From Rhizohabitans arisaemae (GTDB taxonomy: Bacteria; Actinomycetota; Actinomycetes; Streptosporangiales; Streptosporangiaceae), in the NCBI RefSeq assembly GCF_025996515.1, contig NZ_BLRH01000060.1, forward strand, positions 744,001 through 808,000: a stretch of 64,000 nucleotides of DNA. Direction: 5' to 3'. This document shows, piece after piece, positions 15,685 through 19,349 of the stretch. The notes beneath the pieces were generated by a model that was not told the origin of the DNA, did not search any database, and saw only the letters and a list, made by a program, of their open reading frames with translations. The first letter of the stretch is position 1. Every line of letters begins with the position of its first letter. The translations under genes and the position numbers were made by a program.

Positions 15685-16296
15685 TTAGGTCTTCTTGCTC
15701 TTCCGCTTAGGCGCGATACTCGCCCCACCGAAGAGGGCGAACCCCTTGATCACCAAAACCGGGGCGCCGAGCGGCGGATCGTCGTCCTGCTGGGCGTCGA
15801 TCCCGCCGAAGATCCCGATCGCCTCGTTCCGGACCTCGACCCCCTCGGGAAGCGTGATGTTGATCCCGCCGAAGACCGCGGTCATCTTGATCTCGACGAC
15901 CGGTGCGTCGAACACGGCCGAGGTCATGTCCAGATCCACCCCGCCGAAGACCGTGACGACCTTGCTCCGGCGCCGCACCCGCCAGCGGCCCGTACGCCGC
16001 GTCCCGCCGAACACCGCGATCATCGTGTCGGTCCCGTCGGCGGAGCCGTCGGGGTCCACCGCCGGAGCGACCGGGGTCTTCCGCTCCCCGGCGACCTGCG
16101 GCAGGTCCCGGGTGATCGGCTCAAGCTCGCCGATGGTCTTCGCCAGGTAGACGGCGTCCAGACGCTCGGAGTGCTCGTAGACGGTGAGCCGTCCCATGGC
16201 GAGCGCCTCACCGAGTATCTGAATCGTGCGATCCCGATCGGCGTCGGAGGCCCGCATTTCCAGCCACGCCTCACGGCGTTGCGGCGAATTCTCCAT
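15685..16296 (-). CDS. DUF1707 domain protein with LiaF-like C-terminal region
   Basis: A 203-aa cytoplasmic or membrane-peripheral protein. The N-terminus carries the DUF1707 (SHOCT-like) motif MRASDADRDRTIQILGEALA with GRLTVYEHSERLDAVYLAKT (about residues 14-60). The C-terminal half has repeated FGG turns (AVFGGTRR, TVFGGVDLDM, AVFGGINITLPEG, IFGGIDAQ, ALFGGASI), the beta-repeat pattern of LiaF/cell-wall-stress-responsive domains. No transmembrane helix separates the halves. ATG 16296 has a leaderless -10 box (TATCGT at 16308-16303). The basic tail APKRKSKKT is the C-terminus. Function is unknown, probably envelope stress sensing. Confidence 0.8.
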   Translation of the reverse strand: MENSPQRREAWLEMRASDADRDRTIQILGEALAMGRLTVYEHSERLDAVYLAKTIGELEPITRDLPQVAGERKTPVAPAVDPDGSADGTDTMIAVFGGTRRTGRWRVRRRSKVVTVFGGVDLDMTSAVFDAPVVEIKMTAVFGGINITLPEGVEVRNEAIGIFGGIDAQQDDDPPLGAPVLVIKGFALFGGASIAPKRKSKKT

Positions 16297-16302
16297 ATCT
16301 GC

Positions 16303-16308
16303 ACGATA
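16303..16308 (-). promoter_or_regulatory. -10 box of a leaderless promoter
   Basis: TATCGT, read on the minus strand, stands 6 nt upstream of ATG 16296 and decides that start over the TTG at 16323. Confidence 0.5.
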
Positions 16309-16370
16309 GCGGGGTACATCCAATTCTGCGGTATCCGTTAGCTATCGAAAAACCAGGGCAGACGAGACCC

Positions 16371-16520
16371 ATGGCTACACTGCTTTGGATCATCGCCGTC
16401 ATCCTCGTCATCTCCGGGATCTACTCGATCCTGGCCAAGCGGGAGTTCCTCTGGGGCATCGTCCTCATCGTCCTCGGCTTCCTGGTCGGTCCCGGGGGCA
16501 TCAGCATCTTCGACGTCTAG
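16371..16520 (+). CDS. GPGG-motif small membrane protein
   Basis: A 49-aa peptide beginning MATLLWIIAVILVISGIYS. It has two hydrophobic segments separated by a short polar turn (LAKREF), and ends with the motif GPGGISIFDV that names this actinobacterial family. It is divergent from the DUF1707 gene, with 74 nt between the starts. The function of the family is unknown. The match to the conserved motif, the clean ATG and the short length make it a convincing gene. Confidence 0.8.
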   Translation: MATLLWIIAVILVISGIYSILAKREFLWGIVLIVLGFLVGPGGISIFDV

Positions 16521-16584
16521 TCCGTACCGTCCACCGGGCGCGTCGTTCCCATGAAATCCCAGGTCAAAGGGGTAGACATGAGGC

Positions 16585-17268
16585 ATGGTGGTCAACAGTG
16601 CGGCGCATCGAGCCCTTGATGGGCACCGGTTCGACGTGCGGGGCCCCCTCGATCTGGGGTCGCCCGCCACGTCCGTCGTACAGGTCTCCCTCGGCGACCG
16701 GCTCCACGAGTTCACCTCGGGGGATCTGGCGTTCGGCCGGGCCTGGGCCCGGGACATGGGGGTCCTCGCCTTCAGCGAGGGCTTCACCACCCAGGGCGGA
16801 CGGCTGCGCATCGGATACACCCAGGTCGGCGACCGCGGCCTGAGCGAACGGATCCTCGCCGCGGTCTGGGAAGGCAAGCGCCACAGCCTGGGCACCCACC
16901 TCTACCACGCCGGGACGGCCGACGCCGTCCGGCTCTTCTCCTGCCTCACCATCAGAGAGCACGAGGACGGCCTCTCCATCCTGCCCAGAACGGGCACCTT
17001 CGCCGAGTCGGCCGAGCTGCTCAAGGAGGTGCCCGAGATCGGCCTCCTGGAGATCGCCACCCTCAACGGGCGGACGGCCAAGCGGCTCCCCACCTGGAAG
17101 GGCACGGCGACCCGGGCCTTCGAGCTCTTCCAGGACACCCTCACCAGCGGTGACCCCTACTTCGTCCTGGTCAACGAGACCACCTGCGTCACGGTCCTGC
17201 CGCACGCCCACGCCGTGCCCCGGATGCGGCAGCTGGCGGACCGCCTCACCGTGACGGCGGGGTTCTAG
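16585..17268 (+). CDS. Hypothetical protein at the head of the MauE/MauD-like operon
   Basis: A soluble 227-aa protein that I cannot assign. It has no signal peptide. Noticeable segments are FDVRGPLDLGSPATSVVQVS, EGFTTQGGRLRIGYTQVGDR and a C-terminal EIATLNGRTAKRLPTWKGTA. Its last base is the first base of the next start (TAGTG), so it is coupled to the MauE-like gene. A TAGACA box 6 nt before the ATG could be a leaderless promoter. Its place in a thiol-redox operon suggests a role in maturing or sensing the exported Cys-rich protein, but this is inference. Confidence 0.7.
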   Translation: MVVNSAAHRALDGHRFDVRGPLDLGSPATSVVQVSLGDRLHEFTSGDLAFGRAWARDMGVLAFSEGFTTQGGRLRIGYTQVGDRGLSERILAAVWEGKRHSLGTHLYHAGTADAVRLFSCLTIREHEDGLSILPRTGTFAESAELLKEVPEIGLLEIATLNGRTAKRLPTWKGTATRAFELFQDTLTSGDPYFVLVNETTCVTVLPHAHAVPRMRQLADRLTVTAGF

Positions 17269-17756
17269 TGCTCGCCGCCGCGGTCTGCGTGGTCTGCCTG
17301 GGGTCGGCCCTCGGCCACCTGCGTCGACCGGCCGCCCTGACCGCCGCCATCCGGGCGCACGCCGTGATCCCCGCCGCCCTGGCCGTCCCCGCCGCCGTCG
17401 CGACGATGCTCGCCGAAGCCGCGATCGGCCTCGGCGGGGTGCACGCGCTGCTCTCCGGCTCCCTGTGGCTCCACCCGATCACGGTGGCCGCCGCCGCGCT
17501 GATGGCGGCGTTCACCCTCTACACCCTGCTCACGTTGCGTACGGGCGGCGCCGTCCCCTGCGGCTGCTCCGCCGACCGGCACCCGGTGAGCCGCTGGACC
17601 GCGTGGCGCGCCGGCGCCTTGGCGGTGCTCGCCCTCTCCGGCCCGCTCCTGCCCGCGCGGACGGCCTCCGAGCTCGCGATCACCCTGATCGCCGGGCTGG
17701 CCTTCGCGACCCTGTTGTGGCATCTGCCCTCGGCCATGGAGGTCCGTGCACCGTGA
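17268..17756 (+). CDS. MauE/DoxX-like redox membrane protein
   Basis: A 162-aa integral membrane protein with four hydrophobic segments. A CGCS motif (VPCGCSADRHPVSRWTAWRA, from about residue 98) is typical of MauE/DoxX-type proteins that pass electrons to a periplasmic thioredoxin. GTG 17268 overlaps the previous stop, and the gene ends in GTGA shared with the thioredoxin-like gene. In methylamine-utilisation operons MauE and MauD are needed to form the six disulfides of the small dehydrogenase subunit; here a 12-cysteine exported protein lies two genes downstream. Confidence 0.78.
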   Translation: MLAAAVCVVCLGSALGHLRRPAALTAAIRAHAVIPAALAVPAAVATMLAEAAIGLGGVHALLSGSLWLHPITVAAAALMAAFTLYTLLTLRTGGAVPCGCSADRHPVSRWTAWRAGALAVLALSGPLLPARTASELAITLIAGLAFATLLWHLPSAMEVRAP

Positions 17757-18166
17757 GCTTCACGACAACCGCCGTCCTGCTGACCTGGGTGGCCATCCTC
17801 CTCCTCGGCCTGGTGGTGTCCGGGCTGATCCGCCAGGTGCACGCCTTGACGGGCGCGCCGAGCGCGCTGGGGCCGGCCCCGGGCACCGCGTTCCCGGGGT
17901 TCACCGGCCCGGCGCTCCTGCTCTTCCTGGATGAGGGATGCCCGGTCTGCTCCGAAGTCCTCGCCGAATCCGCAAAAGTACGGGCATTGCCGGTCCGGGC
18001 CCTGTTCGCCCACGAGGATCCCGGCCTGTTCGACCGGCACTCGATCCCGGTCGCGCCCTTCGGCGTCGTCCTCGACGCGGCGGGACGGGTCCGCGCCGCC
18101 GGACCGCTCGGGTCCGCGGACGCCGTACACGAACTCGTCGGCAAGGCCTTGGAGCCGGTGCCGTGA
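17753..18166 (+). CDS. Membrane-anchored thioredoxin-like protein (MauD-like)
   Basis: A 137-aa protein with an N-terminal transmembrane anchor (residues about 5-25) and an extracytoplasmic thioredoxin-like domain holding the redox motif CPVC in FLDEGCPVCSEVL, then VPVAPFGVVLDAAGRV with the cis-proline-like VAPF. This matches a short MauD/TlpA-type disulfide donor or isomerase. GTG 17753 is coupled to the preceding MauE-like gene, and the gene overlaps the next one by GTGA. It probably oxidises or proofreads the 12-Cys protein encoded next. Confidence 0.78.
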   Translation: MSFTTTAVLLTWVAILLLGLVVSGLIRQVHALTGAPSALGPAPGTAFPGFTGPALLLFLDEGCPVCSEVLAESAKVRALPVRALFAHEDPGLFDRHSIPVAPFGVVLDAAGRVRAAGPLGSADAVHELVGKALEPVP

Positions 18167-18663
18167 CGGGGATCATGCCGCTGCGGGGAGCCTGGCCGGA
18201 GGGGGCCGTCAAGGCGCACCGGAGGGTCCGGTTCCCCGCCCCGGTGAGCCGGCGTTCGATCTTCCGGGTGGCGCTGGCCGGAGCCACCAGCCTCGGGCTG
18301 GTCGCGTTGACGGTCTTCCCCGCGGCCAGGACCGCCTTCGCCGCGGGGTACCGGATCCTGCCCTACCCGTGCCCCTCGTACGCGACGGACCACAACTGCA
18401 GCCCCGGATGCGGGCCGAGCCGGGTCTGCCTGGACTGCTGCGACATCGACGGCTGGCATCGCCGGCGGGGCGACTTCCGGCTGCGGCCGAACCAGTGCGC
18501 CTCCGGGGTCTACGACGGCTGGCTCTGGGCCTACTCGGGGCCCTGCGGGCGATGCCGCGGCGGGGTCACCTACCGGTGCCACGACGGGTACCGGCGGGTC
18601 GGCCACTGGTGGTCCCGGACGATCTGCCGGGCGACCGTCCGCTGCAGGAGGCCGGTATTTTAG
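18163..18663 (+). CDS. Tat-exported 12-cysteine protein, methylamine-dehydrogenase-light-chain-like
   Basis: A 166-aa protein with a twin-arginine signal (VSRRSIFRVALAGATSLGLV, about residues 28-47, ending near TAFAA) and a mature domain of about 105 residues with 12 cysteines (PYPCPSY, HNCSPGCGPSRVCLDCC, NQCASG, PCGRCRG, YRCHDG, TICRATVRC). The methylamine dehydrogenase light chain also has 12 cysteines in six disulfides, a long export signal, and MauD/MauE partners. Tryptophans (GWLWAY, HWW) that could form a tryptophylquinone are present, but no heavy-chain gene lies nearby. Start GTG 18163 is coupled to the MauD-like gene; ATG 18175 is an alternative. Confidence 0.72.
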   Translation: MTGIMPLRGAWPEGAVKAHRRVRFPAPVSRRSIFRVALAGATSLGLVALTVFPAARTAFAAGYRILPYPCPSYATDHNCSPGCGPSRVCLDCCDIDGWHRRRGDFRLRPNQCASGVYDGWLWAYSGPCGRCRGGVTYRCHDGYRRVGHWWSRTICRATVRCRRPVF

Positions 18664-18809
18664 CCACCCGGCTGCGGAGCCTCTTCTCCTTCGCCCCCCT
18701 GGCGCTGCTGGGGGGTGTCGCCCTGGCCGCCTCGGCCCAAAAAAGCCCGCTCCTGTGCTGGGCGGTGCTGGCGGCCCTCGCAGGCTACGCCCTATCCGGC
18801 TCGGTTTGA
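18609..18809 (+). CDS. Small membrane protein, start uncertain
   Basis: A short open frame whose C-terminal 45 residues form two hydrophobic segments (FSFAPLALLGGVALAAS and LLCWAVLAALAGYALSG). It overlaps the end of the 12-Cys gene. GTG 18609 gives 66 aa. However, an AGGAG ribosome site (18646-18650) is placed for a rare ATT start at 18657, which would give 50 aa. Tight packing with neighbours and membrane-like composition support a gene, but it is not certain. Confidence 0.4.
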   Translation: MVPDDLPGDRPLQEAGILATRLRSLFSFAPLALLGGVALAASAQKSPLLCWAVLAALAGYALSGSV

Positions 18810-18827
18810 ACGCTTAACAGCAACTAC

Positions 18828-19349
18828 GTGTTGTTCTCGTCAGGTTGGCGGGGTTCGGTGCTCGCCCTCTTCAGCGGAGGGCTCCTGGTCGGCGGTGCCG
18901 TGAGCGGTACGGCCCTGTGGGCGCTGTCCGGGCTCACCGAACCGCTCCCCGGCCCCTGGCGGGCCTGGCCGCCCGTGCTCGCCGCCGCCCTCGGCGTCCT
19001 CCGCGAAGCGGGGGTTCTCCGGATCGCCCTGCCCCAGAACGCCCGGCAGATCCCGCAGGCGGTGCTGCAGCGGGACGTGCGGCGCGGGGCGCTCCGGTTC
19101 GGCTTCGAGCTGGGCACCGGAGTCCGCACCTACGTCTCCTCCACCGCGCCCTACGTGCTCGCCGCCGGGCTGCTCTTCGCCCGGCCGGACCTGCCCGCGG
19201 CCCTGCTCATCGGGGCCTGCTTCGGCGCCGGACGGGCGCTGACCGCGCTGCTCGGCTCACTGCGCGGCCCGGTCGACCGGCTCCGGGCGATCACCGTCGC
19301 GATCACGGTCGTCACGCTCGTCTCGCTCACGCTTCTCCTGCTCGGCTGA
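18828..19349 (+). CDS. Hypothetical membrane protein
   Basis: A 173-aa protein with four or five hydrophobic segments and a basic central cytoplasmic loop (LPQNARQIPQAVLQRDVRRG). The end reads RAITVAITVVTLVSLTLLLL. I do not recognise the family. It is the last gene of the MauE/MauD-like operon, starting 18 nt after the small membrane frame. The final 93 nt overlap the end of the convergent MFS gene, which is an unusually long tail-to-tail overlap. Confidence 0.65.
   Translation: MLFSSGWRGSVLALFSGGLLVGGAVSGTALWALSGLTEPLPGPWRAWPPVLAAALGVLREAGVLRIALPQNARQIPQAVLQRDVRRGALRFGFELGTGVRTYVSSTAPYVLAAGLLFARPDLPAALLIGACFGAGRALTALLGSLRGPVDRLRAITVAITVVTLVSLTLLLLG

Follow-up and report, generated by a model that had tools for sequence, protein, structure and literature searches.

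A conserved actinobacterial operon that probably pairs MauE, MauD and a selenocysteine-containing MauF with an exported 12-cysteine protein

A conserved operon with an interrupted last gene

A 64,000-nucleotide stretch of the actinomycete Rhizohabitans arisaemae (contig NZ_BLRH01000060.1, positions 744,001 to 808,000; hereafter the window) contains a compact operon that encodes a 227-amino-acid protein, a homologue of the membrane protein MauE, a membrane-anchored thioredoxin resembling MauD, a protein with a twin-arginine translocation (Tat) signal and exactly 12 cysteines, and a homologue of MauF whose reading frame is interrupted by a UGA codon (Table 1). We conclude that, very probably, this locus is a MauF-MauE-MauD maturation cassette for the exported 12-cysteine protein and its MauF is a selenoprotein. 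Central to this reading is the observation that a single conserved operon unites four genes and the UGA-interrupted mauF, in which the UGA falls exactly at the single conserved cysteine of MauF.

The genes are closely packed. The GTG start of mauE overlaps the stop codon of the first gene by 1 nucleotide, and overlaps of 4 nucleotides are present between mauE and the MauD-like gene and between the latter and the 12-cysteine gene. An earlier sequence-only reading of the window had described the MauE-like, CPVC thioredoxin and Tat-exported protein genes as coupled, and translational coupling is borne out over positions 17268-18663. Of 22 named loci from Actinomadura, Spirillospora, Actinoallomurus, Micromonospora and Streptomyces, 21 retain the order of all six open reading frames (ORFs), and one is cut by a contig end. 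This recurrence is more than chance.

The last two ORFs as one gene, mauF

Beyond the 12-cysteine gene, a membrane segment of ∼50 residues extends to the UGA and is followed by a 173-amino-acid membrane ORF (18828-19349) whose family carries no name in Pfam or NCBIfam. Profile comparison with hhalign aligns three genuine MauF proteins with the window type at 94.4% and with divergent actinobacterial copies at 99.2%. In the controls, no block-shuffled MauF exceeded 11.5% over 40 trials, and the reversed protein gave 0.75%. Where the gene starts is uncertain; by comparison with aligned homologues we propose the CTG at 18642.

The small ORF and the 173-residue ORF share one frame, with only TGA between them, in all 26 window-type and 8-cysteine-type loci, and divergent mauF types likewise consist of one frame interrupted only by TGA. 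Conserved residues flank the codon on both sides, reading ..LSGSV(U)TRNS.. in the window type and ..RSTWSP(U)GESMLSSI.. in other types, while genuine MauF proteins read ..LLSTWSPCGYSSIS.. at the aligned site. Four actinobacterial copies (L091, L094, L125 and L127) carry WSPCG with a TGC codon, and three proteobacterial MauF copies also have cysteine at the UGA position. When 17 sequences are aligned, only five columns are invariant, and one of these is the UGA column, where the other sequences have cysteine.

Searching 201 genomes of the family with the joined alignment yielded 55 mauF matches, spread over 50 of them. TGA is present in all 55 (twice in one of them), and no TAA, TAG or uninterrupted form was found among these matches. 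The 148 genomes examined from another class yielded 34 matches, 24 with TGA and 10 without a stop (some of them partial); none has TAA or TAG at this codon, and mauF occurs as a UGA or cysteine form in 31 of the 148 genomes. Two genomes (G716 and G091) account for an instance of three mauF copies in one genome, all with TGA, and for a match with two in-frame TGA codons.

On the evidence of alignment and reading frame, the two last ORFs are one gene, mauF, predicted to be read through the UGA. An interpretation as an unassigned 50-residue transmembrane protein followed by an unassigned 173-residue protein was rejected, first on the strength of the homology to MauF and later on that of the constant TGA. 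The sequence-only reading had named the MauE and MauD-like genes correctly, but its inventory of maturation genes lacked MauF. Its right edge at 18809 is the last base of the UGA, and the gene continues past this point; mauF was overlooked because it looks like two unrelated small ORFs.

Covarying hairpins 3′ of the UGA

Two stem-loops start 8 and 26 nucleotides 3′ of the UGA. Across 26 distinct ungapped sequences, 93.3% of cells in the proposed stems are paired and 10 of 12 base pairs show double changes, including 6 of the 7 pairs in hairpin 2. Covariation is 0.690, compared with 0.228 (standard deviation 0.027) in shuffled alignments and no more than 0.238 in slid controls; much of it reflects the contrast of two clades, and inside the divergent clade alone the value is 0.347 versus 0.122. 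The G at 18843 (column 37) in the apical loop of hairpin 2 is invariant, and a conserved apical G is a characteristic of bacterial selenocysteine insertion sequence (SECIS) elements (PMC1794560).

Table 1. Features of the operon, in window coordinates
Feature	Position	Strand	Evidence
First gene, 227-amino-acid cytosolic protein	16585..17268	+	AlphaFold2 model, fold comparison
Membrane-bound MauE homologue, CGC invariant	17268..17756	+	PF07291, hhalign
MauD-like membrane-anchored thioredoxin, CPVC	17753..18166	+	hhalign to mau-cluster MauD
Tat-exported 12-cysteine protein in mauA position	18163..18663	+	invariant RR, 12 cysteines
mauF homologue, predicted as one gene through the UGA	18642..19349	+	in-frame reading, alignment, hhalign
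UGA, predicted selenocysteine codon at the conserved cysteine of MauF WSPCG	18807..18809	+	alignment with MauF
Hairpin 1, 3′ of the UGA	18818..18833	+	columns 12-27 of alignment A7, 96.2% of cells paired
Hairpin 2, proposed SECIS stem-loop	18836..18852	+	columns 30-46 of A7, 91.2% of cells paired

Selenocysteine machinery in genomes that carry the UGA form

The best scores per genome to the Rfam model of selenocysteine tRNA (tRNA-Sec) separate into a group at 59.7 bits or more and a group at 48.7 bits or less. A high-scoring tRNA-Sec is present in all 40 genomes that carry UGA-mauF or the 12-cysteine operon. It is found in neither of two genomes with the cysteine form of mauF (G432 and G312) and in 10 of 33 genomes without mauF, so that the comparison of 40/40 with 10/35 gives a Fisher p of 3.5e-12, uncorrected for relatedness.

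In the genome of R. arisaemae itself, selA, a selB-like gene, tRNA-Sec and a second UGA-mauF lie within ∼6 kb on contig C33. The SelA match scores 334 bits, and the tRNA is recognized by both ARAGORN and Rfam. At this second site (C33:549000-557500, L090), selA, the selB-like gene and tRNA-Sec are directly 5′ of a set of P4-like, MauD-like and UGA-mauF genes in which neither a cysteine-rich protein nor MauE is visible; the set is possibly a decayed copy. In another genome (L054), tRNA-Sec is located ∼2 kb from an 8-cysteine operon.

MauE, the MauD-like protein and the first gene

The window MauE matches PF07291 with an E value of 1.7e-15 and 57.9 bits, well above the Pfam gathering cut-off of 27, and aligns with genuine mau-cluster MauE at 97.3% in hhalign. 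It contains the CGCS motif, in which C98, G99 and C100 are invariant. The MauD-like protein comprises 137 residues with one N-terminal transmembrane segment and a CPVC motif whose cysteines, C63 and C66, are both invariant. It aligns with mau-cluster MauD at 98.7% over 155 columns, and does not reach the MauD equivalog TIGR02661 (22.3 bits versus a curated cut-off of 188.6), of which only the N-terminal part is matched. In other genomes we observed gene fusions of MauF with MauE (L102:4094-5236) and of MauE with MauD (L094:3552-4415), which support a direct partnership among these proteins.

The 227-residue first protein is encoded in every compared locus that is not cut by a contig end. Its AlphaFold2 model has a predicted local distance difference test (pLDDT) score of 93.5, and the best structural matches in VIA-align are Tli4/TplEi (Z 6.8), PsbP (5.6), EagT6 (5.3), DcrB (5.2) and LpqN (4.8), all of them weak matches below Z 8. 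The predicted fold resembles a tandem pair of Mog1/PsbP-type domains. EagT6 is a secretion chaperone, and because it is among the fold matches of this model, we offer the guess that the protein could be a chaperone or adaptor that holds the precursor. The 170-residue GWEG proteins of type-C loci were considered as relatives of the 227-residue protein, and no relationship was detectable.

The exported 12-cysteine protein

The exported protein is 166 residues long, starts at GTG and bears an SRRSIF signal whose twin arginine is invariant in all 36 homologues with the N-terminus covered. An even number of cysteines is found in the mature part of all 38 distinct homologues, namely 12 in 35, 10 in two and 14 in one. 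Cys89 and Cys92 are lost jointly: five sequences lack both and none lacks only one, which points to a pair, although these five sequences come from few genera and represent few independent losses. The AlphaFold model of this protein is uninformative (pLDDT 40), and no family match was found in Pfam or NCBIfam. Comparison with phages gave no match, and that with plasmids gave chance-level matches only.

Three relatives from Streptomyces and Micromonospora (L002, L006 and L015) have extra C-terminal repeats after the 12-cysteine domain. Those of L002 and L006 are each two PG_binding_1 domains according to Pfam, and the L015 sequence is nearly identical to that of L006. Because some relatives are fused to peptidoglycan-binding domains, their domain composition suggests a cell-wall role for the exported protein.

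The sequence-only reading had raised the possibility of a new quinoprotein akin to the methylamine dehydrogenase (MADH) light chain, MauA, an idea that the analysis does not support. A search with the light-chain profile PF02975 gave no match at an E value of 1 in 17 members of the family, and hhalign comparison of the 12-cysteine family with nine light chains of MADH and aromatic amine dehydrogenase gave values of 0.7-1.4%. The same profile method joins Thermomicrobium light chains to MADH at 97%. A sequence search of solved structures in the PDB also gave no match. The cofactor contexts of tryptophan are absent as well: no tryptophan stands in a W-C or W-x3-C context, and the only invariant tryptophans, W120 and W122 (38/38), form a W-x-W pair, with W150 kept in 31 of 38 homologues and replaced by tyrosine or alanine in the other seven. 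As that reading had noted, no heavy chain, amicyanin or MauG is encoded in the operon. A genome search for the heavy-chain family PF06433 gave no match, but control genomes were equally silent. Actinobacterial cargo proteins of type-C loci were tried as a bridge and dropped, since they reach 17% against MADH plus Thermomicrobium and less than 1% against the 12-cysteine family. It is thus very unlikely that the exported protein acts as a tryptophylquinone enzyme. The other suggestion of the sequence-only reading, a disulfide-rich secreted protein with a dedicated MauE/MauD-type maturation system, agrees with the profile matches of its two neighbors given above. Because the 12-cysteine protein shares with MauA its position after MauE and MauD, its Tat signal and its number of cysteines, its partnership with the helper proteins may parallel that of MauA, by analogy and with no relatedness to MauA implied.

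Alternative explanations

The UGA might be an ordinary stop codon, such that a small and a 173-residue membrane protein are made separately and act together as a split MauF. Both ORFs have plausible starts in an operon whose genes are closely packed, and the single-sequence RNA fold is weak. However, the frame is preserved and TGA is used in every interrupted mauF copy, residues between the UGA and the apparent second start (T-R-N-S or G-E-S-M) are conserved, uninterrupted copies have TGC at the same codon, and tRNA-Sec tracks the UGA form. We therefore regard this explanation as very unlikely. UGA readthrough is known in high-GC actinobacteria, and near-cognate suppression could place tryptophan or cysteine at this position with no involvement of selenium. 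Such decoding is highly improbable here, given that the UGA is restricted to one conserved redox cysteine codon, is followed by covarying hairpins and is linked with tRNA-Sec, SelA and SelB.

Two other alternatives concern the substrate. That the 12-cysteine protein resembles the light chain in being a quinoprotein, whose cofactor is tryptophylquinone or is otherwise derived from amino acids, would accord with its mauA position, its 12 cysteines and Tat signal, and the invariance of W120 and W122; we find it scarcely credible in view of the missing PF02975 match, the ∼1% profile value, the lack of a tryptophan adjoining cysteine at cofactor positions and the lack of a heavy chain in the operon. 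A different proposal comes from the decRiPPter study (PMC7794033), which describes three mauE families, one of them with mauD, beside precursors with at least 8 cysteines, and proposes that similar clusters make a ribosomally synthesized and post-translationally modified peptide (RiPP) or bacteriocin. If this applied to the window, MauE and MauD would modify the cysteines of a peptide. This is unlikely for the present operon, in which the substrate is a Tat-signal-bearing domain of ∼105 residues with an even number of conserved cysteines, fused in some relatives to peptidoglycan-binding domains, and its 166-residue Tat precursor differs from the short, leader-bearing precursor expected of a RiPP. 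Moreover, no known RiPP-modifying enzyme is encoded in the operon, MauF, MauE and MauD are redox proteins, and the 227-residue protein is unmatched.

Several points weigh against a selenoprotein-dependent maturation cassette. A SECIS covariance model trained on other clades does not find the element of the window, and the single-sequence fold of the window hairpin is unremarkable (z of -1.27, or -0.76 under synonymous shuffling). The UGA was seen directly in 32 of the 40 carrier genomes. In R. arisaemae, the SelB-like match of 232 bits is slightly below the curated cut-off of 242, and the machinery searches covered SelA, SelB and tRNA-Sec. Selenocysteine insertion in MauF is a prediction from sequence, and both the direction of electron flow and the putative link between selenocysteine-containing MauF and the substrate are drawn from gene order and from analogy with the mau cluster.

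A possible mechanism and related systems

In the maturation pathway that we propose, the 227-residue protein may hold the precursor before export, and the 12-cysteine protein would leave the cell by the Tat pathway. MauE, with its CxC motif, and MauD, with its CxxC thioredoxin motif, would form or correct six disulfides outside the membrane. MauF, as a possible relative of DsbD/CcdA-type conduits, would exchange thiol or selenol equivalents with MauE and MauD across the membrane. Since its selenol would occupy the only conserved cysteine position of MauF, this residue would be the membrane redox center of the relay, with flow that could be oxidative or reductive.

The mau cluster of Paracoccus denitrificans (mauFBEDA..., NC_008688) shares with the window operon homologues of MauF, MauE and MauD and the order of MauE, MauD and a Tat-exported 12-cysteine protein. 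It differs in having a heavy chain, amicyanin and MauG and in lacking the 227-residue first gene; in the window operon, mauF comes last and contains the UGA, and a relationship of the exported protein to MauA is not demonstrable. The light chain of the mau system requires MauE and MauD, and a contribution of MauE to forming its disulfides has been suggested, as related in PMC7794033.

DsbD/CcdA conduits have a Pro-Cys motif in an early transmembrane segment, a feature we count as a likeness to MauF. Divergent MauF copies match the family weakly (DsbD_2, PF13386; E values of 0.001-0.002, below the curated cut-off), and unlike these conduits MauF has only one conserved cysteine or selenocysteine. 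With bacterial selenoproteins that are homologues of thiol oxidoreductases (PMC1794560, Table 1), MauF shares a predicted selenocysteine at a redox cysteine position, cysteine-containing homologues, a 3′ hairpin with a conserved apical G, and linkage to selA, selB and selC. MauF is absent from the 25 selenoprotein families of that table, and in the open-access literature we found no paper linking MauF with selenium or a selenoprotein. MauF appears to be an undescribed selenoprotein family, as judged against this 25-family list; ∼90 families are cited in PMC5029168.

The Streptomyces families of the decRiPPter study have mauE, in one case with mauD, beside a precursor with at least 8 cysteines. 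The study recognizes no other mau genes there, and its passages covered here do not mention selenium or Tat export for these clusters (PMC7794033). These MauE/MauD clusters are probably cassettes of the same type as the window operon.

Neighboring genes and other loci

Immediately 5′ of the operon, the window contains a gene for a DUF1707/LiaF-like protein (15685-16323, minus strand) and a membrane ORF of ∼50 residues (16372-16521, plus strand), for neither of which is there any indication of membership in the conserved operon. Flanking genes show lineage synteny only, around the Actinomadura loci, and a scan of the locus for promoters and terminators found none.

Other MauF neighborhoods in the phylum encode Tat-exported proteins with 8, 10 or 20-28 cysteines, some of which are followed by FG-GAP repeats, as in L092. 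The ∼20-28-cysteine proteins (L092:5322-6698, L100:5762-7087 and relatives L105-L133) carry an N-x-CPPGT..GWW..C..YYxDC motif that resembles the light chain, occur in one class in 29 of its 148 sampled genomes and align at 17% with MADH plus Thermomicrobium in hhalign. A further mauF-linked Tat protein (L104:4887-5357) has 22 cysteines in ∼110 residues, with no similarity seen to other cargo proteins. On a Thermomicrobium roseum plasmid (L063, NC_011961.1:483628-499852), tandem proteins that resemble the MADH light chain and contain a W-C motif alternate with propeller-like hypothetical proteins of ∼400 residues, possibly an undescribed array of tryptophylquinone-type enzymes.

Implications

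Even for the classic methylamine system, the roles of MauF, MauE and MauD have been unclear. Tentatively, and with somewhat less than even confidence, we suggest that MauF, MauE and MauD provide a general selenium-dependent route for folding exported cysteine-rich proteins across Actinomycetota, and that selenocysteine-containing MauF is among the main reasons for which many such organisms keep the selenocysteine code. If so, the pathway would serve unrelated-looking cargo proteins with 8, 10, 12 or 20-28 cysteines, some of them fused to FG-GAP or peptidoglycan-binding domains. The putative selenoprotein family is found in about one quarter of the sampled family genomes and, as UGA or cysteine forms, in one fifth of those from the other class. 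The MauE/MauD clusters listed as RiPP candidates are predicted to be folding cassettes rather than peptide-modification clusters. The pathway becomes testable by selenium depletion, with the 12-cysteine exported protein as its likely client.

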